Origin: Desulfovibrio desulfuricans DSM 642
GTDB lineage: Bacteria > Desulfobacterota > Desulfovibrionia > Desulfovibrionales > Desulfovibrionaceae
Direction of reading: 5' to 3'
Assembly (NCBI RefSeq): GCF_000420465.1
Contig: NZ_ATUZ01000014.1
Location: 186,001 to 250,000 of the forward strand
DNA length: 64,000 nucleotides
Positions 15,893 to 23,053 of this stretch are shown in pieces; the first letter of the stretch is position 1, and each line of letters starts with the position of its first letter. The notes under the pieces were generated by a model. It worked only from the letters and a program-made list of their open reading frames with translations, had not been told where the DNA came from and did no database searches. Made by a program: the position numbers and the translations under genes.

Positions 15893-16630
15893 TCACCAAG
15901 AAGAAATACGCACTCCTGCTCTGGCGGCAGTGGCGACAACGTGCTCTTCCATGGCCAAACGCGCCCCATGCGAGTTCCGCGACCGGAGATGTTCCAGCAG
16001 TACCGCATGTTCACGCATGGTGTCCACCAGCCCTTCCTGATTGGAAAAAGGCAACCGCTGGCTTTCAGAAAACAGATCAAAAAACGGGCGCATGGCCTCA
16101 ATGAAAAAAGGATTGTTTGCCGCTTCAATCATCTGGGTATGAAAGGCGAAATCCAGTTGGGCAAAAAGCTGCACGTCACCGCGCACGCTGGCCTGCTTCA
16201 TGTCGTCCAGCATGGCTGCCATGTCGTCAAGCTGGGCCTGCGTAGCGTTCAGGGCCACAAGGGCGGCAATGGCCGGTTCTATGGCGTGCCTGAACTGAAA
16301 AATCTGCGTTTCTTTGCCCGTAATAAATGACCGGTCAAACCGCGTGACAGGTGCCGCAGGCAGGCTCTCCTGTGCGCGTGTCACAAGGAATACGCCCTTG
16401 CCGGGCTGAATGGTCACCTTGCCCATGGTCTCCAGAATAACCAGAGCCTCGCGTACCGTGGGCCGGCTGACCCCCAGGGTTTCTGCAAGCGCGCGTTGTG
16501 GGGGCAATTTATGCCCTTCTTGCCAGTTATTATCTAAAATCATTGACAAAATTCTTTCAGCGGCTTCTTCTGAGCTAGATTTCCACAATTTTGTAATTTT
16601 ATCTAAATTTTCCTGTAATTTAGCACACAT
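15893..16630 (-). CDS. GntR/FadR-family transcriptional regulator
   Basis: About 245 residues. The ATG at 16630 has GGTGG six bases upstream; an upstream in-frame TTG is less likely. Residues ~25-80 are the GntR winged helix (LPPQRALAETLGVSRPTVRE, then GKGVFLV). The rest is an all-helical FCD effector domain (FRHAIEPAIAALVALNATQ, FHTQMIEAANN). It is divergent from the ABC transporter/ureide operon, with a TGGTnnnACCA-type site between, so it is almost certainly the local regulator. The effector is probably a ureide or another small carboxylate handled by the operon. Confidence 0.88.
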   Translation of the reverse strand: MCAKLQENLDKITKLWKSSSEEAAERILSMILDNNWQEGHKLPPQRALAETLGVSRPTVREALVILETMGKVTIQPGKGVFLVTRAQESLPAAPVTRFDRSFITGKETQIFQFRHAIEPAIAALVALNATQAQLDDMAAMLDDMKQASVRGDVQLFAQLDFAFHTQMIEAANNPFFIEAMRPFFDLFSESQRLPFSNQEGLVDTMREHAVLLEHLRSRNSHGARLAMEEHVVATAARAGVRISSW

Positions 16631-16710
16631 AGTTTCCACCAATTTGTAGAAGTAACATTTCTCGTCAACCTATGTTGACAAATTTGTAGGAAACGAGCAA
16701 TCATTTTTTA

Positions 16711-16781: not shown

Positions 16782-17585
16782 ATGCAATTTTTTTTCAGCC
16801 GCCTTGGTTTCATACTGGCCGTCTTGCTGCTGACCGCAGCTTTGCCGCAATCCCTTTACGCCCAAAAAACTGATAACACGCTTGAAACAATAAAAAAATC
16901 AGGCGTTATCTCCATTGCTGTTCCGCAGGACTTCCCCCCCTTTGGTTCTGTGGGCGCAGATATGCAGCCTGTGGGTTACGACATTGATACTGCCCGGCTT
17001 ATTGCAAAAAGCCTGGGCGTCAAGGTGAAGCTTGTGCCAGTTACCAGCACAAACCGCATTCCCTACCTTACCACTGGCAAGGTTGATCTGGTCATCTCCT
17101 CGCTGGGCAAAAACGCCGAACGCGAAAAAGCCATCGACTTTTCAGTTCCCTACGCGCCTTTCTTTAACGGCGTATTTGGCCCCGCCGATCTCAAGGTCGC
17201 CACGGCAGAAGATCTGACGGGCAAGACAATTGCGGTGACCCGTGGCGCGGTTGAGGACATGGAACTGACCAAGATTGCGCCCGCATCAACAGAAATCCGC
17301 CGTTTTGAGGACAACAGTTCAACCATCGCCGCATATCTTTCCGGCCAGGTGCAGATGGTTGCCACAGGCAACGTTGTGGCGGCTTCCATCAACGGGCAGA
17401 ACCCGGCCAAACATCTGGGAGTCAAATTCCTCATCAAGAACTCGCCCTGTTACATCGGGCTGAACAAAAACGAGCCGGAACTGCAAAAGGCTGTGGACGA
17501 CATCATCATCCAGGCAAAGAAGGACGGGCAGCTTGAAGCCATTGCGCGAACATGGCTGCACACCTCCCTGCCGCAGGATTTTTAA
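16782..17585 (+). CDS. Polar amino-acid type ABC transporter substrate-binding protein
   Basis: A 267-residue family 3 periplasmic binding protein with a signal peptide cleaved near SLYAQ (about residue 28). LVISSLGKNAEREKAIDFS is the family signature and GYDIDTARLIAKSLG the first-lobe motif. It delivers ligand to the two permeases and ATPase that follow. This transporter class takes amino-acid-like zwitterions and small carboxylates. Because the operon continues with ureide-degrading enzymes, I infer a ureide such as allantoate as ligand. GGGGGA lies before the ATG. Confidence 0.88.
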   Translation: MQFFFSRLGFILAVLLLTAALPQSLYAQKTDNTLETIKKSGVISIAVPQDFPPFGSVGADMQPVGYDIDTARLIAKSLGVKVKLVPVTSTNRIPYLTTGKVDLVISSLGKNAEREKAIDFSVPYAPFFNGVFGPADLKVATAEDLTGKTIAVTRGAVEDMELTKIAPASTEIRRFEDNSSTIAAYLSGQVQMVATGNVVAASINGQNPAKHLGVKFLIKNSPCYIGLNKNEPELQKAVDDIIIQAKKDGQLEAIARTWLHTSLPQDF

Positions 17586-17781: not shown

Positions 17782-18450
17782 ATGGCCTATCAGTTTACCT
17801 TCGAGCCCATTGCGGCAAACTGGCCATTGCTGGTTCAGGGGGCAGCGCTGACGCTGGCCCTCACGGCGGTCAGCGCCACGGTGGGCCTTGCCGTGGGCAT
17901 TTTGGGAGCGGTTTCGCGCGAGTGGCGGTTGCCCTTTTTGCACCCGTTTTTTACCGCCTATGTGGAATGCGTCCGCAACACGCCCTTTATTGTGCAATTG
18001 TACTTCATATACTTCGGCCTGCCCGCCCTTGGGGTACGGCTGAACGGATGGGAAGCCTCCGTGCTGGCAATGGTCGTCAACCTTGGCGCATATTCGACCG
18101 AGATCATCCGTGCTGGTGTGGCGGCTGTGCCCAGAGGCCTGATTGAAGCCGCAGACTCCCTGGCCATGAGCCGCTGGCAGTGCCTGCGCCACGTGATTCT
18201 GCGCCCGGCGCTCAAGACAGTGTGGCCCGCCCTGTGCAGCCAGATTGTCATTGTCATGCTGGGGTCTTCGGTATGCTCGCAGATCGCCGCCGAGGAACTG
18301 ACCTTTGAGGCAAACCTGATCCAGAGCCGTACGTTCCGTGCCTTTGAGGTCTACCTCGCCAGCACGCTCATGTACCTTGCTCTGGCCATCGCCGTGCGCA
18401 AGAGCCTGCATGCCTTTGGCAAACACTGCATCCGCAGGGGGCGCGCATGA
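17782..18450 (+). CDS. ABC transporter permease, His/Glu/Gln/Arg/opine family
   Basis: A 222-residue membrane permease with about five helices. The EAA loop that contacts the ATPase reads EAADSLAMSRWQCLRHVILRP, an intact form of the EAA---G pattern with Ser in place of the usual Gly. The N-terminal NWPLLVQGAALTLALTAVSA and ECVRNTPFIVQLYFIYFGLP are typical of polar amino-acid transporters. It overlaps the next permease by four bases (ATGA), so the two are translationally coupled and form a heterodimeric channel. Confidence 0.92.
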   Translation: MAYQFTFEPIAANWPLLVQGAALTLALTAVSATVGLAVGILGAVSREWRLPFLHPFFTAYVECVRNTPFIVQLYFIYFGLPALGVRLNGWEASVLAMVVNLGAYSTEIIRAGVAAVPRGLIEAADSLAMSRWQCLRHVILRPALKTVWPALCSQIVIVMLGSSVCSQIAAEELTFEANLIQSRTFRAFEVYLASTLMYLALAIAVRKSLHAFGKHCIRRGRA

Positions 18451-19103
18451 TCAGCTTCTCTATCTGGGACATGGTGCGCCATCTGCTGACGGGCGCGGGC
18501 TGGACAATCGTTTTATCCGTCATCGCTTTCGCTCTTGGCGGATTCATGGGCCTTATTGTGCTGTTTGTACGCATTTCGCCCAAGGCACAGCTGCGCGCCC
18601 TAGCCGTGACGTACATTGAGTTTTTTCAGGATACGCCGCTGCTTATGCAGTTTTTTCTCATCTTTTTCGGGCTGGCCCTGTTTGGCGTGGATATTTCGCC
18701 CCTGGCCGCCGCAACGCTGGGCCTTACGTTCTTTACCAGCGCGTACCTTGCTGAAATCTGGCGCGGATGCGTTGAGGCGCTGCCCAAGGGTCAGTGGGAG
18801 GCATCGGCGTGCCTTGCCATGAACCGTTACGAGCAGCTGCGTCACGTCATTCTGCCCCAGGCCTTGCGCATAGCCATCCCCCCGACTGTGGGCTTTTCAG
18901 TACAGGTCGTCAAAGGAACAGCCGTGGCCTCGATCATCGGCCTTGTGGAAATAACCAAAACCGGGACCATGATTGCCAACGCAACCTTCAGGCCGCTGCT
19001 GGTCTACGGCCTTGTGGCTGCGGGTTATTTTCTCATGTGCTATCCGCTTTCGGCCTTTGCCCGCTGCATCGAAAGGAGGCTCCATGTCGCTGGTCGTCGT
19101 TGA
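18447..19103 (+). CDS. ABC transporter permease, His/Glu/Gln/Arg/opine family
   Basis: The second permease, 218 residues, with the same fold. EFFQDTPLLMQFFLIFFGLA is the conserved TM region and EASACLAMNRYEQLRHVILPQ the ATPase-coupling loop. Its start overlaps the previous stop, and its last 20 bases overlap the ATPase gene. Two different permease subunits plus a single ATPase is the usual layout of polar amino-acid importers. Confidence 0.92.
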   Translation: MISFSIWDMVRHLLTGAGWTIVLSVIAFALGGFMGLIVLFVRISPKAQLRALAVTYIEFFQDTPLLMQFFLIFFGLALFGVDISPLAAATLGLTFFTSAYLAEIWRGCVEALPKGQWEASACLAMNRYEQLRHVILPQALRIAIPPTVGFSVQVVKGTAVASIIGLVEITKTGTMIANATFRPLLVYGLVAAGYFLMCYPLSAFARCIERRLHVAGRR

Positions 19104-19812
19104 TGAACTGCACAAGCAGTTCGGTGAAACCAAGGTGCTGCGTGGGGTCAACCTCACGGTGGAAGAAGGCGACGTTGTGGCCGTCATTGGCCGCAGCGGA
19201 TCTGGCAAGAGCACGTTTCTGCGCATTCTCAACGGGTTGGAATCCTTTGATGCGGGTTTTGTGAAGATTGACGGCGACCGCGTCCGGGGGCTGGAAAACG
19301 ATTTGCGCCCCCTGCGGCTCAAGGTGGGCATGGTCTTTCAGCAGTTCAACCTCTTTCCCCACCTTACGGCGGGGGAAAACGTCATGCTGGCCCCGCGCAT
19401 TGTCAAAAAAGAGCCCGAGGCCGAAGTGCGGGAGCTTGCCGCAGAAATGCTCGCCCGGGTGGGCCTTGCCGACAAATTCAACGCCTTTCCCGATCAGTTG
19501 TCTGGCGGGCAGCAGCAGCGGGTGGCCATTGCCCGTGCGCTTGCCATGCGCCCCAAGATGTTGCTGTGCGATGAAATAACCTCCGCTCTTGATCCCGAGC
19601 TGGTGGGCGAGGTGCTTGAGGTCGTGCGCAAGCTTGCGGCGGAAGGCATGACCCTGATCATGGTCACTCACGAAATGCGCTTTGCGCGCGAAGTAGGCAA
19701 CAAACTGGTGTTCATGCACCAGGGCAAGGTTCACGAGGCCGGGGCCCCCAAGGCGCTTTTTGCCAAGCCCGGCACTCCGGAACTGGCTTCGTTCATCCAG
19801 ACGGTAAACTGA
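19084..19812 (+). CDS. Polar amino-acid type ABC transporter ATP-binding protein
   Basis: About 242 residues from the ATG at 19084, which has AAGGAGG upstream. It has Walker A GRSGSGKST (around residue 40), a Q-loop in VFQQFNLFPHL, signature LSGGQQQRVAIARALA, Walker B LLCDEITSALDP and the switch His in VTHEMRFA. It is a GlnQ/HisP-type ATPase that powers import with the permeases at 17782-19103. All catalytic motifs are intact. Confidence 0.95.
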   Translation: MSLVVVDELHKQFGETKVLRGVNLTVEEGDVVAVIGRSGSGKSTFLRILNGLESFDAGFVKIDGDRVRGLENDLRPLRLKVGMVFQQFNLFPHLTAGENVMLAPRIVKKEPEAEVRELAAEMLARVGLADKFNAFPDQLSGGQQQRVAIARALAMRPKMLLCDEITSALDPELVGEVLEVVRKLAAEGMTLIMVTHEMRFAREVGNKLVFMHQGKVHEAGAPKALFAKPGTPELASFIQTVN

Positions 19813-19932
19813 GCATTATGGGCAATTTATCAAAAATTGCTCCGGCATCCGCCCATGCGAACGCCCGTTGCGGAGACCGGCGCGCTGTGCCCGGCCTGGG
19901 CAAACAAAACTAAATCTGCTCAAGGAGGAAAC

Positions 19933-20703
19933 ATGGCTTATCCAGAGGGTTTGCTGAAAACACGGGCGGTCATCCGGCCCGGCGAATATGCGGTCATTCC
20001 GCCGGAGGGTCGGGTGCGTAACGTCATACCCGGCATTGAGGACTGCAACATGTCCATCATTGCCTCCCCCAAACTGGGCGCGAGTTTTGTGCAGTATGTG
20101 GGCACCGCCCTGCCCGGCGGGGGCACCGTTGCCCCCTTTGCGCAGGAGCCGGGCGTGGAGGCCTTTTTATATGTCATGGATGGCTCTGGCGCGCTGACCG
20201 CAGCCACCTGCGAGCAGAAGCACGCTCTGGCCCCCGGCGGCTACGTGTTTGCCCCTGCGGGAAAAGGCCTTGAATTTACCAACACCACCAATGCCCCGGT
20301 GCGCTTCCTGCTCTACAAACAGCGCTACATTGCCCTGCCCGGCCACGAGGTCGAAGCCGTATTCGGCAATACCGCAACAATGGAAGAGCGTATCTACGAA
20401 GACATGACCAACGTGTTTATCCGCGATCTGCTGCCCACCCATCTGGGCTTTGACATGAACATGCACACCCTCAGCTTTGACCCCGCAGGCTGCCATCCAT
20501 TTGTGGAAACCCATGTGCAGGAGCACGGGGCCTACCTGCTGGAAGGCGAAGGCATCTATCTGCTGGGGGCCGAGTGGATTCAGGTGCAGAAGGAAGACTT
20601 CATTTTCTTTGGCCCCTACACCCCGCAGGCCGTGTACGCCACGGGCCGGGGAAGGCTCACGTACATTTACTCCAAAGACTGCAACCGCGATGTGGCCCTC
20701 TAG
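19933..20703 (+). CDS. allE: (S)-ureidoglycine aminohydrolase
   Basis: A 256-residue bicupin protein; the ATG at 19933 follows AAGGAGGAAAC. It matches the AllE/YlbA family, which converts (S)-ureidoglycine to (S)-ureidoglycolate plus ammonia in allantoin breakdown. The second cupin carries E192, H194, H198 and Q232. Their spacing (0, +2, +6, +40) is that of the Mn ligands E235, H237, H241 and Q275 of the Arabidopsis enzyme. So the metal site is complete. It lies between the ABC transporter and the KARI-like gene, with ureide hydrolysis completed by the gene at 21818. Confidence 0.85.
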   Translation: MAYPEGLLKTRAVIRPGEYAVIPPEGRVRNVIPGIEDCNMSIIASPKLGASFVQYVGTALPGGGTVAPFAQEPGVEAFLYVMDGSGALTAATCEQKHALAPGGYVFAPAGKGLEFTNTTNAPVRFLLYKQRYIALPGHEVEAVFGNTATMEERIYEDMTNVFIRDLLPTHLGFDMNMHTLSFDPAGCHPFVETHVQEHGAYLLEGEGIYLLGAEWIQVQKEDFIFFGPYTPQAVYATGRGRLTYIYSKDCNRDVAL

Positions 20704-20731: not shown

Positions 20732-21724
20732 ATGTCACAGTTTGGCGAAATTTACCGGGACGAAGACGTTGATATTTCCGTGCTGCACGGCAAGACCATT
20801 GCCATCATCGGCTACGGCAGCCAGGGCAAGGCTCAGGGCAAAAGCCTGCGCGACAGCGGCATCAACGTGATTGTGGGCGTTGGCGACAGAACCGTGCACA
20901 ATAGCTGGAAGGACGCCGAGGCCGACGGATTTGCCGTGTACAACATAGAGGAAGCCGTCAAACAAGCGGATATCGTTCATATTCTGCTGCAAGACCCGGC
21001 CCAGCCCGCCGTGTACTATTCTTCCATCCACGCCCACCTGCGCCCCGGCCAGACCCTCAGCTTTGCGCACGGTTTTGCCATCCTCTACGGCACCATCAAA
21101 CCGCCCAAGGACGTGGATGTCATCCTGTTTGTGCCCAACGGCCCCGGCCCGGTGGTGCGCCGCAAGTTCAAGGAAGGTTCGGGCATCTACGGCGCGGTGG
21201 CCGTTGATCAGGACGTCAGCGGCCATGCCGCCGCCACTGCTCTTGCCATTGCCAAGGGCGTGGGCAGCACCCGCGTGGGCACCATCAAGCTCTCGTTCCA
21301 GCACGAAACCGAGGGCGACAATTTTGAAGAACAGGTGCTCTACGGCGGGGCCATCCAGCTCATGCGCTCCATCTACAAGGTCATGACCGATAACGGCTAT
21401 CCGGCTTCCTTCGCCTATGCCAAGGCCGTGCGCTCCATCCGCTCCATCATTGACGATATTGATGAAGTGGGCGTGGAAGAATACCTCACGCGGCGGGCCA
21501 GCCGCACCTGTGAATTTGCCGTGCGCACATCCGGCCCGCGCGTCATCAACGAAGACGCCATCCAGCAGATTTTTGAAGAAACGGGAAAAGGCATCTTTGC
21601 CCGTAACTGGCTGAATGAATTCAATCTGGGCATGCCCACTCTCAACCGCATGCGCCGCACCTGGGCCGATTCGGACATGGAGCGCACAGGCAAGCTGTTC
21701 CGCGACAAATTCGGCATGTCATAG
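20732..21724 (+). CDS. Ketol-acid reductoisomerase homologue with altered active site
   Basis: 330 residues aligning end to end with class I IlvC. It has Rossmann GYGSQG (27-32), FAHGF with H113, D196 and E200 of the first metal pair in EGDNFEEQ, and S257 in ASRTCEF. Other residues essential in true KARI are changed: the catalytic Lys of PKGPGH is N136 (PNGPGP), and the two glutamates supplied by the partner subunit (FECLHELK) are K231 and S235 (AKAVRSIR). The usual two-Mg isomerase chemistry is therefore unlikely. In an operon with allE and an allantoate-type hydrolase I infer an NAD(P)-dependent enzyme acting on a ureide product, perhaps ureidoglycolate. AAGGA precedes the ATG. Confidence 0.8.
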   Translation: MSQFGEIYRDEDVDISVLHGKTIAIIGYGSQGKAQGKSLRDSGINVIVGVGDRTVHNSWKDAEADGFAVYNIEEAVKQADIVHILLQDPAQPAVYYSSIHAHLRPGQTLSFAHGFAILYGTIKPPKDVDVILFVPNGPGPVVRRKFKEGSGIYGAVAVDQDVSGHAAATALAIAKGVGSTRVGTIKLSFQHETEGDNFEEQVLYGGAIQLMRSIYKVMTDNGYPASFAYAKAVRSIRSIIDDIDEVGVEEYLTRRASRTCEFAVRTSGPRVINEDAIQQIFEETGKGIFARNWLNEFNLGMPTLNRMRRTWADSDMERTGKLFRDKFGMS

Positions 21725-21755
21725 GCTTTTTCCGCCGCTGGCGGGATGTGCCTGC

Positions 21756-21780
21756 GGGCACGGGCTGTCAGCCCGTGCCC
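21756..21780 (+). repeat. Intercistronic perfect inverted repeat
   Basis: GGGCACGGGCT (21756-21766), loop GTC, AGCCCGTGCCC (21770-21780), between the KARI-like gene and the hydrolase. There is no U-tract, so an mRNA-stabilising or processing hairpin is more likely than a terminator. Confidence 0.7.
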
Positions 21781-21817
21781 CCGCCGAATGAATAGAGCCA
21801 GAACCAAGGGAGAAGGC

Positions 21818-23053
21818 ATGAAATCTGTGCGTGTAGACAAAGCGCGGCTGCAAAACCGCATGGAAGCAATATCTGCATTCGGGGCATCTGCGGGCGGCGG
21901 CGTCACCCGGCTGGCCCTGTCCGATGCGGACAAAGACGCCCGGCAGCAACTCAGCGCATGGCTGAAGGAGCTGGGCTGTGAAATCCATGTGGACGGCATG
22001 GGCAACATCTTTGCCGTGCTGCCGGGCAAGGACAGAAGCCTGCCCCCGGTGATGACAGGTTCTCACGGCGATTCCCAGCCGCTCGGCGGACGTTTTGACG
22101 GCATGCTGGGCGTTGTGGCTGGCGTGGAAGTTGTGAACACCCTGCGCGATGCGGGCGTGACCCTGCTGCGCGATCTGGTGGTGGCCGACTGGACCAATGA
22201 GGAAGGTTCCCGCTTCACCCCCGGCTGCTCCGGCTCCGGAGTATGGGCTGGCAAGCTGGCGCAACAAGATATGTACGCCCTCAAAGACCAGCAAGGCCTT
22301 ACCCTTGGCGGGGAGCTCACACGCATCGGCTTCCGGGGCGATTCCAGTTATTTCCCCCGCCCTGTGCATGCGGCCTTTGAACTGCACATAGAACAGGGGC
22401 CTGTGCTGGAAGAGAAAAGCATCCCCATCGGCATACCACAGGGCATTGTGTGCCTGCGCTGGTACAATGTGCGCGTGCAGGGCGTGCCCAACCATGCCGG
22501 GCCAACGCCCATGACCAGCAGGCACGATGCCATATACGCCTTTTCGCTCATGGCGGCGCGCATCTTTGAGATCGCCCGCAGTTCCGGCCAGGTGGTTGCC
22601 ACTGTAGGCGAAGTGCATGCTTCGCCTAACTCGCGCAACGTCATTGCCGGGGATGTGCAGTTCACCATCGACGTCCGCGGCTGGGACGAATCCGCCACAG
22701 ATAATGTGTGCCTACGCATCGAGGCCGCGCTGGCCGAAGCTGCGCAACTGGCGGGGTGTGAGGTAACGCCCGAGCGCATCTGGCAGGTTTCGCGCGTGCC
22801 CTTTGACCAGCGCCTGCGCGGAATGGTGCGCGAGGCCGCGACCAACCTTGGCCTGCCCTGCCTGGACATGGTCTCCGGAGCATCGCACGACATGATCTAT
22901 ATTGCCCAGGTTGCGCCGGGAGCCATGATATTTGTGCCCAGTATGGGCGGACGCAGCCATGCCGAGGTAGAAAACACCTCGTGGGAAGACTGCGCGGCAG
23001 GCGCTGACGTGCTGCTGCACTGTCTGATGCGCGCGGGCAACGAACATGGTTAG
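21818..23053 (+). CDS. Zn-dependent amidohydrolase, allantoate amidohydrolase/N-carbamoylase family (M20)
   Basis: 411 residues from the ATG at 21818 (GGGAGAAGGC upstream). This M20 di-metal hydrolase of the AllC/ureidoglycolate hydrolase/N-carbamoyl-amino-acid hydrolase group has metal ligands H83 (GSHGDS), D94 (GRFDG), E128/E129 (NEEG), H190 (ELHIEQGP) and H381 (RSHAEVE). The lid domain carries NHAGPTPMTSRHDA. With AllE beside it, allantoate to ureidoglycine conversion is the natural reading. Ureidoglycolate hydrolysis or another carbamoyl substrate cannot be excluded. It is the last gene of the operon. Confidence 0.85.
   Translation: MKSVRVDKARLQNRMEAISAFGASAGGGVTRLALSDADKDARQQLSAWLKELGCEIHVDGMGNIFAVLPGKDRSLPPVMTGSHGDSQPLGGRFDGMLGVVAGVEVVNTLRDAGVTLLRDLVVADWTNEEGSRFTPGCSGSGVWAGKLAQQDMYALKDQQGLTLGGELTRIGFRGDSSYFPRPVHAAFELHIEQGPVLEEKSIPIGIPQGIVCLRWYNVRVQGVPNHAGPTPMTSRHDAIYAFSLMAARIFEIARSSGQVVATVGEVHASPNSRNVIAGDVQFTIDVRGWDESATDNVCLRIEAALAEAAQLAGCEVTPERIWQVSRVPFDQRLRGMVREAATNLGLPCLDMVSGASHDMIYIAQVAPGAMIFVPSMGGRSHAEVENTSWEDCAAGADVLLHCLMRAGNEHG

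Follow-up and report, generated by a model that had tools for sequence, protein, structure and literature searches.

What reaction does a homolog of ketol-acid reductoisomerase (KARI, IlvC) catalyze when it is encoded among ureide genes and its catalytic lysine and metal-binding glutamates are replaced? The question is raised by a locus of Desulfovibrio desulfuricans DSM 642 in a stretch of 64,000 nt (GCF_000420465.1, contig NZ_ATUZ01000014.1, positions 186,001-250,000), which was analyzed as a whole and is termed the window; the genome has the identifier G000. The ORF in question starts with ATG at 20732, its stop codon ends at 21724 and it encodes 330 AA. A preliminary description had named the product a full-length KARI homolog, and ORF, start, stop and length were confirmed, as was the presence of both KARI_N and KARI_C. 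We propose, with a probability of about 0.7, that the product of this KARI-like gene is a (S)-ureidoglycolate dehydrogenase dependent on NAD(P)+, which derives from KARI and is a non-orthologous replacement of AllD. The reaction would be a known one, probably catalyzed by a known family's member that has been repurposed. No account of a KARI homolog in ureide breakdown was found among the papers listed in searches of the open-license PMC literature, which is a weak absence since other papers fall outside of it.

The gene is part of an apparent operon (Table 1). After a GntR/FCD regulator on the minus strand, the plus strand encodes an ABC transporter of the polar amino-acid type, then AllE, the KARI-like protein and an amidohydrolase of the AllC type. 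The stop codon of AllE ends 28 bases upstream of the KARI-like gene and the AllC-type gene is directly downstream. Both neighbors, already recognized in the preliminary description, score above the cut-offs of their family models. No allantoinase match was obtained within the 64 kb window. The divergent GntR regulator and the importer recur in locus L004, and importer homologs are also present in L007, in both cases upstream of the KARI-like gene; the importer of the window may therefore transport a ureide instead of an amino acid.

Table 1. Coordinates of the genes discussed; positions without a locus identifier refer to the window.
Feature	Position	Strand	Evidence
GntR/FCD-family regulator, divergent from operon	15893..16642	-	PF00392 and PF07729
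ABC transporter substrate-binding protein, family 3; likely ureide or amino-acid importer	16782..17585	+	PF00497
ABC transporter permease	17782..18450	+	PF00528
ABC transporter permease	18447..19103	+	PF00528
ABC transporter ATPase	19084..19812 (open frame from 18973; likely start 19084)	+	PF00005
AllE, (S)-ureidoglycine aminohydrolase	19837..20703 (likely start 19933)	+	TIGR03214, 334.4 bits (cut-off 200)
KARI-like protein, proposed (S)-ureidoglycolate dehydrogenase	20732..21724	+	N136, N197, K231, S235 signature
AllC-type amidohydrolase (M20), allantoate-type	21746..23053 (likely start 21818)	+	NF006769, 464.7 bits (cut-off 452)
ATCase-related transcarbamylase	L006:10003-11025
ATCase-related transcarbamylase	L008:1789-2799
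ATCase-related transcarbamylase	L018:1264-2262
ATCase-related transcarbamylase	L021:7777-8766
ATCase-related transcarbamylase	L030:3402-4397
ATCase-related transcarbamylase	L036:3442-4437
ATCase-related transcarbamylase, also in L132, L145 and L146

The window protein matches the Pfam profiles KARI_N (2e-61) and KARI_C (1e-23), both over the full domain length. All six Pfam profiles that it matches belong to KARI and Rossmann families and none is Ldh_2, and TIGR03175 (AllD) is not among its seven NCBIfam matches. With 293.9 bits it exceeds the cut-off of TIGR00465 (ilvC, 226.15), and it remains below those of NF004017 (328.8 bits, cut-off 336) and NF009940 (260.7 bits, cut-off 406). An AlphaFold model (mean pLDDT 91.2, pTM 0.86) matches KARIs over the whole length; the best hit in the ranking, which covers only chains already found by Foldseek, is 4xdy (Z 39.6, rmsd 1.8, 324 residues). 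In the structure comparison, most class I KARIs are 35-41% identical to the window protein, the Sulfolobus KARI 29% and structures of BurG, an NAD+-dependent cyclopropanol synthase of the KARI family, 29-30%. Identity to 45 canonical KARIs is 37-44%. The protein resembles class I KARI in its whole-length fold, the Rossmann motif and the residues H113, D196, E200 and S257, but differs in the replaced catalytic Lys and metal-binding Glu and in its position among ureide genes.

Relatives were collected in a scan of GTDB genomes, which gave 182 sequences, of which the best 80 were kept. Among these 80, identity to the window protein shows a sharp gap, with 36 loci at 58-97% and the rest at ≤ 44%. 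The replacements N136, K231 and S235, noted beforehand for the window protein alone, occur together in 37/37 members of the resulting clade (window plus 36 relatives) versus 0/45 canonical KARIs. Position 136 corresponds to the catalytic Lys of the PKxPG motif, and positions 231 and 235 to the Glu residues of the partner subunit which bind the second Mg2+ in canonical KARI. N197, E199, A230 and R237 are also common to all 37 members; at 136, 231, 235, 197, 199, 230 and 237 the 45 canonical KARIs have K, E, E, L (43/45), G, F and K, respectively. Besides the catalytic Lys and the two metal-binding Glu, the clade has replacements at about ten more fixed positions. The nucleotide-binding residues G27, G29, Q31 and G32 are kept in 37/37 members, as are H113, D196, E200 and S257. 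A His-to-Pro change after PKGPG had been listed with the other replacements; Pro140 is present in the window protein, but it was rejected as a signature residue, since position 140 is variable in the clade (P, H, A, K, R) and in canonical KARIs (H, A, P, F, T, V, R, N) alike. The cofactor (beta2) loop is variable within the clade (position 58 is Asp in 9/37 and Ser in 27/37 members), so that we write NAD(P) for the cofactor.

In an IQ-TREE tree of 82 proteins, which was calculated without BurG, all 37 sequences with the N/K/S signature form one group with a support of 100/100; a long-branch warning of the program names this clade and four Victivallis sequences. According to the record titles, the members belong to seven phyla (Thermodesulfobacteriota, Synergistota, Bacillota, Chloroflexota, Spirochaetota, Planctomycetota and Verrucomicrobiota), and most records are metagenome bins. 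The dN/dS values of the window gene versus four close relatives are 0.035-0.048. Given that the three changes are fixed in 37/37 clade members and absent from 45/45 canonical KARIs, and given these dN/dS values, the signature is not due to chance. A pseudogene or decaying IlvC duplicate was excluded by dN/dS and the fixed signature.

The gene neighborhoods of the 37 KARI-like loci were searched with tblastn; the family names used for the counts rest on representatives. AllE was found in 34/37 loci, AllC in 27/37 and allantoinase in 25/37 (in L014 only as a partial match of 207 bases). Further families were HIU hydrolase (18/37), OHCU decarboxylase (16/37), uricase (14/37), M20 hydrolase (10/37), transcarbamylase and xanthine dehydrogenase (9/37 each), adenine deaminase and carbamate kinase (6/37 each) and a putative permease-like family (5/37). 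In 27/37 loci, AllE is encoded on the same strand and ends no more than 270 bases before the KARI-like gene; it is located directly downstream of that gene in L007, and is overlapped by a long open frame in L039, where it was detected by tblastn. In two loci without AllE (L028 and L038) the contigs end 609 and 183 bases upstream, and in the genome of L009 a different contig (L161) carries AllE beside the transcarbamylase. The expected association with allE and allC holds on these counts. Some loci, for instance L025, L027 and L033, comprise adenine deaminase, AllE, the KARI-like gene, AllC, OHCU decarboxylase, uricase, HIU hydrolase and allantoinase; in such gene sets leading from purine to ureidoglycolate, the KARI-like gene is the sole candidate seen for the next step.

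The same queries were applied to 44 canonical KARI loci, and neither AllE nor AllC (0/44 each) nor any other of the purine families was found, except an M20 hydrolase once (L046). Chance proximity of the KARI-like gene to AllE was rejected on these figures (34/37 versus 0/44). Queries taken from canonical loci for acetolactate synthase (small subunit IlvN, large subunit IlvB), for the dihydroxy-acid dehydratase IlvD and for citramalate synthase matched in 34/44 canonical loci versus 1/37 KARI-like loci, so that the clade, like the window gene, stands outside ilv operons. The lone match, in L019, was obtained with an acetolactate-synthase query, is weak (23-26% identity, at most 83 bits) and is nearly 8 kb away. 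This match and the M20 match of L046 are the only crossings seen between the ureide and ilv contexts.

Two groups of loci contain additional genes downstream. L018, L030, L036, L010, L021 and L014 have varying sets of a second transcarbamylase that differs from the first, an oxidase of the DAO type, subunits of ETF, a FixC-like protein, a protein of the Asp/Glu/hydantoin racemase family and a cytosine-deaminase-like amidohydrolase, which perhaps form a linked hydantoin- or creatinine-type pathway. In the Pirellulaceae loci L020, L034, L035 and L038, the next sought family downstream is an ArgE/DapE/YgeY-like M20 hydrolase at a distance of about 20 to 1150 bases, possibly an oxalurate hydrolase.

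A separate KARI is present in 35/37 clade genomes (all except G021 and G035) with 32-43% identity. In the genome of the window it is located on another contig (L002), is 41% identical and has the canonical K/E/E at 136, 231 and 235. K/E/E was found in 31/35 second KARIs and N/K/S in none. The other four (G004, G011, G026 and G028) are distant, with 33-35% identity to the best query, and their columns 231 and 235 are not safely aligned. The distant homolog of G011 (L194, about 35% to the best query) has Arg at the position of the catalytic Lys (LAPRMAG) and is unlike both the KARI-like clade and IlvC.

As described in PMC3793230, ureidoglycolate is either oxidized by AllD, hydrolyzed by ureidoglycolate amidohydrolase or cleaved by AllA. 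AllD was found over its cut-off (496.2 bits) in 0/37 clade genomes and AllA (ureidoglycolate lyase) likewise in 0/37, with positive controls for both (E. coli for AllD). As far as AllD and AllA were sought genome-wide, the KARI-like gene thus stands at the ureidoglycolate step without another known enzyme. Ldh_2-type proteins below the AllD cut-off exist in 21/37 clade genomes (best 308 bits; a single one with 166 bits in the genome of the window), and one of them could be a divergent AllD in some clade genome. The sought purine genes were absent from the short flanks of ten Ldh_2 loci that were fetched (2.7-4.0 kb per locus).

AllE was over its cut-off in 9/392 Planctomycetota, 3/395 genomes of the window's own phylum and 8/392 Spirochaetota, i.e. 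in 20/1179 surveyed genomes, each set including its chosen center genome. These 20 genomes and G383 were used to examine the exchange between AllD and the KARI-like gene. AllE of G383 (L145:6463-7228) is split between two reading frames, possibly by a sequencing error, and therefore scores below the cut-off in automatic searches. Five of the 21 genomes have the KARI-like gene (G000, G744, G818, G018 and G032, three of them known beforehand), and of the other 16, G296 gave no KARI match while all KARIs of the remaining 15 are of the K/E/E type (an extra KARI fragment in G286 has Lys136 and ends before 196). Same-genus genomes without AllE (G503, G592 and G780, three of nine listed) have the ordinary KARI only. 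AllD exceeded its cut-off in 5/16 AllE genomes without the KARI-like gene (G286, G296, G305, G366 and G383, all planctomycetes), and in all five it is located at most 3 kb from AllE. AllD over the cut-off and the KARI-like gene never co-occur (0/39 KARI-like genomes tested for both); the two genes exchange for one another next to AllE, with five genomes on the AllD-positive side of the comparison. A canonical AllD in relatives, which might have spoken against the proposal, is found in the genomes tested only where the KARI-like gene is absent.

AllA was over its cut-off in 4/55 genomes, namely G286 and G305, which also have AllD, G936 and G220. Of the 16 AllE genomes without the KARI-like gene, 9 remain, and in six of these (G234, G278, G392, G973, G981 and G997) AllE is flanked on either side by an AllC-type gene. 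These flanking genes were seen at L133, L134, L135, L139, L140 and L141, in AllE-positive spirochaetes and planctomycetes without AllD or the KARI-like gene, and one of them may be a ureidoglycolate amidohydrolase. For G876, G926 and G1017, no clear candidate for the ureidoglycolate step was found in the stretch read around AllE.

In the AllD loci L132, L145 and L146, a transcarbamylase was found that shares 53-55% identity with the one of L008, and L132 and L146 also contain carbamate kinase; the other two AllD loci, L130 and L131, show neither. The order in L132 and L146 is AllE, transcarbamylase, AllD, allantoinase (AllB), carbamate kinase, and in L021 it is AllE, transcarbamylase, KARI-like gene, second transcarbamylase, carbamate kinase. 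In the transcarbamylase tree (27 rows; the incomplete rows L157, L147 and L024 were dropped), the three AllD-linked proteins nest with nine from KARI-like genomes in a group of 12 (99/100). Nine further carbamoyltransferases from KARI-like genomes fall outside this group, and support for the exact sister of the three AllD-linked proteins is weak (80/42). In the vicinity of AllE, these ATCase-related transcarbamylases accompany either AllD or the KARI-like gene. Most simply, they would be oxamate transcarbamylases, and AllD and the KARI-like enzyme would give the same product, oxalurate. The oxamate transcarbamylase of E. coli is AllFGH, which is described as unlike ATCase (PMC11326118), and the ATCase-type family is a candidate for a second type, unrelated to AllFGH. 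A possible consumer of oxalurate was found in 11/37 clade genomes (transcarbamylase with at least 43% identity in 9/37, AllG in 5/37, both in three). The other 26/37 genomes, that of the window included, have neither an AllD-operon-type transcarbamylase nor AllG, which counts against the dehydrogenase reading; in one of these 26, G021, the second transcarbamylase type adjoins the KARI-like gene.

The proposed route would follow the step order of the anaerobic allantoin pathway of E. coli (AllB, AllC, AllE, AllD, AllFGH, AllK) up to oxalurate, but with a KARI relative in place of AllD and, in some genomes, probably an ATCase-type transcarbamylase in place of AllFGH. AllC would convert allantoate to ureidoglycine and AllE would convert ureidoglycine to (S)-ureidoglycolate, from whose C2 the KARI-like enzyme would take a hydride to yield oxalurate. 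In some anaerobes, the ATCase-type transcarbamylase together with carbamate kinase would then produce oxamate and ATP. The dehydrogenase interpretation is well supported by context; substrate, direction and mechanism are what we infer. D196 and E200 would hold one Mg2+, which would bind the substrate. The helix that once bore the ligands of the second metal would now be cationic (E231K, H/N234R, E235S, K237R), so that Lys and Arg may stand in for the second Mg2+ and methyl migration would be lost while hydride transfer at C2 is kept; the part given to Lys231 is suggested by the sequence.

The stereochemistry appears compatible with this substrate. The product of KARI is (2R)-dihydroxyisovalerate, and by our own CIP reasoning the same arrangement with N for C3 matches (S)-ureidoglycolate. 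Oxalurate is N-carbamoyl-oxamate, an N-substituted oxamate. AllD, for which (S)-ureidoglycolate is given as substrate, His116 is proposed as base and NAD+ is preferred (PMC3527362), belongs to the L-sulfolactate dehydrogenase-like family; it shares with the KARI-like protein the proposed reaction, the proximity to AllE and, for some operons, the accompanying transcarbamylase and carbamate kinase, but its sequence family is unrelated. A precedent is BurG, also a repurposed KARI relative in genomes with a separate ilvC (PMC9359912), but one that binds two Mg2+, is redox-neutral overall and belongs to secondary metabolism. According to the same source, BurG with NADH reduced the KARI inhibitor N-hydroxy-N-isopropyloxamate (IpOHA), likewise an N-substituted oxamate, to a hemiaminal in the crystal and also oxidized a 2-hydroxy-acid surrogate. 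The step from ureidoglycolate to oxalurate is this carbinolamine/oxamate change of BurG run oxidatively.

The many uricase loci without an oxalurate-consuming gene among the families sought would also fit a reductase of a neighboring 2-oxo acid, such as glyoxylate from decaying ureidoglycolate, hydroxypyruvate or tartronate semialdehyde. Reduction of hydroxypyruvate by BurG (PMC9359912), a dual ketopantoate/KARI activity (PMC4353338) and spontaneous decay of ureidoglycolate to glyoxylate and urea (PMC3793230) are all described. We nevertheless consider this function unlikely, as it would leave ureidoglycolate without an enzyme, AllD (at cut-off) and AllA being absent, and would leave unexplained the nearby transcarbamylase and carbamate kinase, which AllD operons share. 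The latter two enzymes would need oxalurate, not urea, and similar operons hold AllD, an oxidase; this makes it quite improbable that the KARI-like protein is a non-redox ureidoglycolate enzyme, e.g. a lyase forming glyoxylate and urea, in which the nucleotide is structural or only transiently used, even though the absence of AllA from 37/37 genomes leaves the lyase slot open, too, and BurG runs its redox-neutral reaction with bound NAD+ (PMC9359912).

There is a small chance that the substrate is a different ureide or 2-hydroxy acid, which these operons produce or import, and that the adjacency to AllE is incidental. An ABC importer is part of the operon in the window, where no allantoinase was matched, and in Chloroflexota the loci contain additional oxidases, a protein of the racemase family and a second transcarbamylase, but the link to AllE persists in 34/37 loci across seven phyla with otherwise different neighbors, and AllE is over its cut-off in only 20/1179 surveyed genomes. 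A diverged yet functional IlvC for branched-chain amino acids, to which the TIGR00465 score and the closest folds would point, is hardly credible, as 37/37 members lack the catalytic Lys and both metal-binding Glu, 37 loci gave one weak and distant ilv-type match (34/44 in canonical ones) and 35/37 genomes have a second KARI.

Returning to the (S)-ureidoglycolate dehydrogenase, its widest form would be that a KARI without the second metal site, with Lys/Arg for Mg2+, serves a second oxalurate route of purine breakdown in seven phyla and is paired in some anaerobes with an ATCase-family oxamate transcarbamylase unrelated to AllFGH; we give this combination slightly less than an even chance. If true, an enzyme of central amino-acid biosynthesis became a dehydrogenase of purine catabolism, a catalytic metal ion was replaced by lysine/arginine and one reaction was invented twice. 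The curated family model TIGR00465 would then score a ureidoglycolate dehydrogenase as ilvC. The oxamates, a class of KARI inhibitors, resemble the presumed product oxalurate. The finding would also point to an ATCase-type oxamate transcarbamylase, and it would fill the missing last step in otherwise complete urate/allantoin gene sets of planctomycetes, verrucomicrobia, spirochaetes and others.
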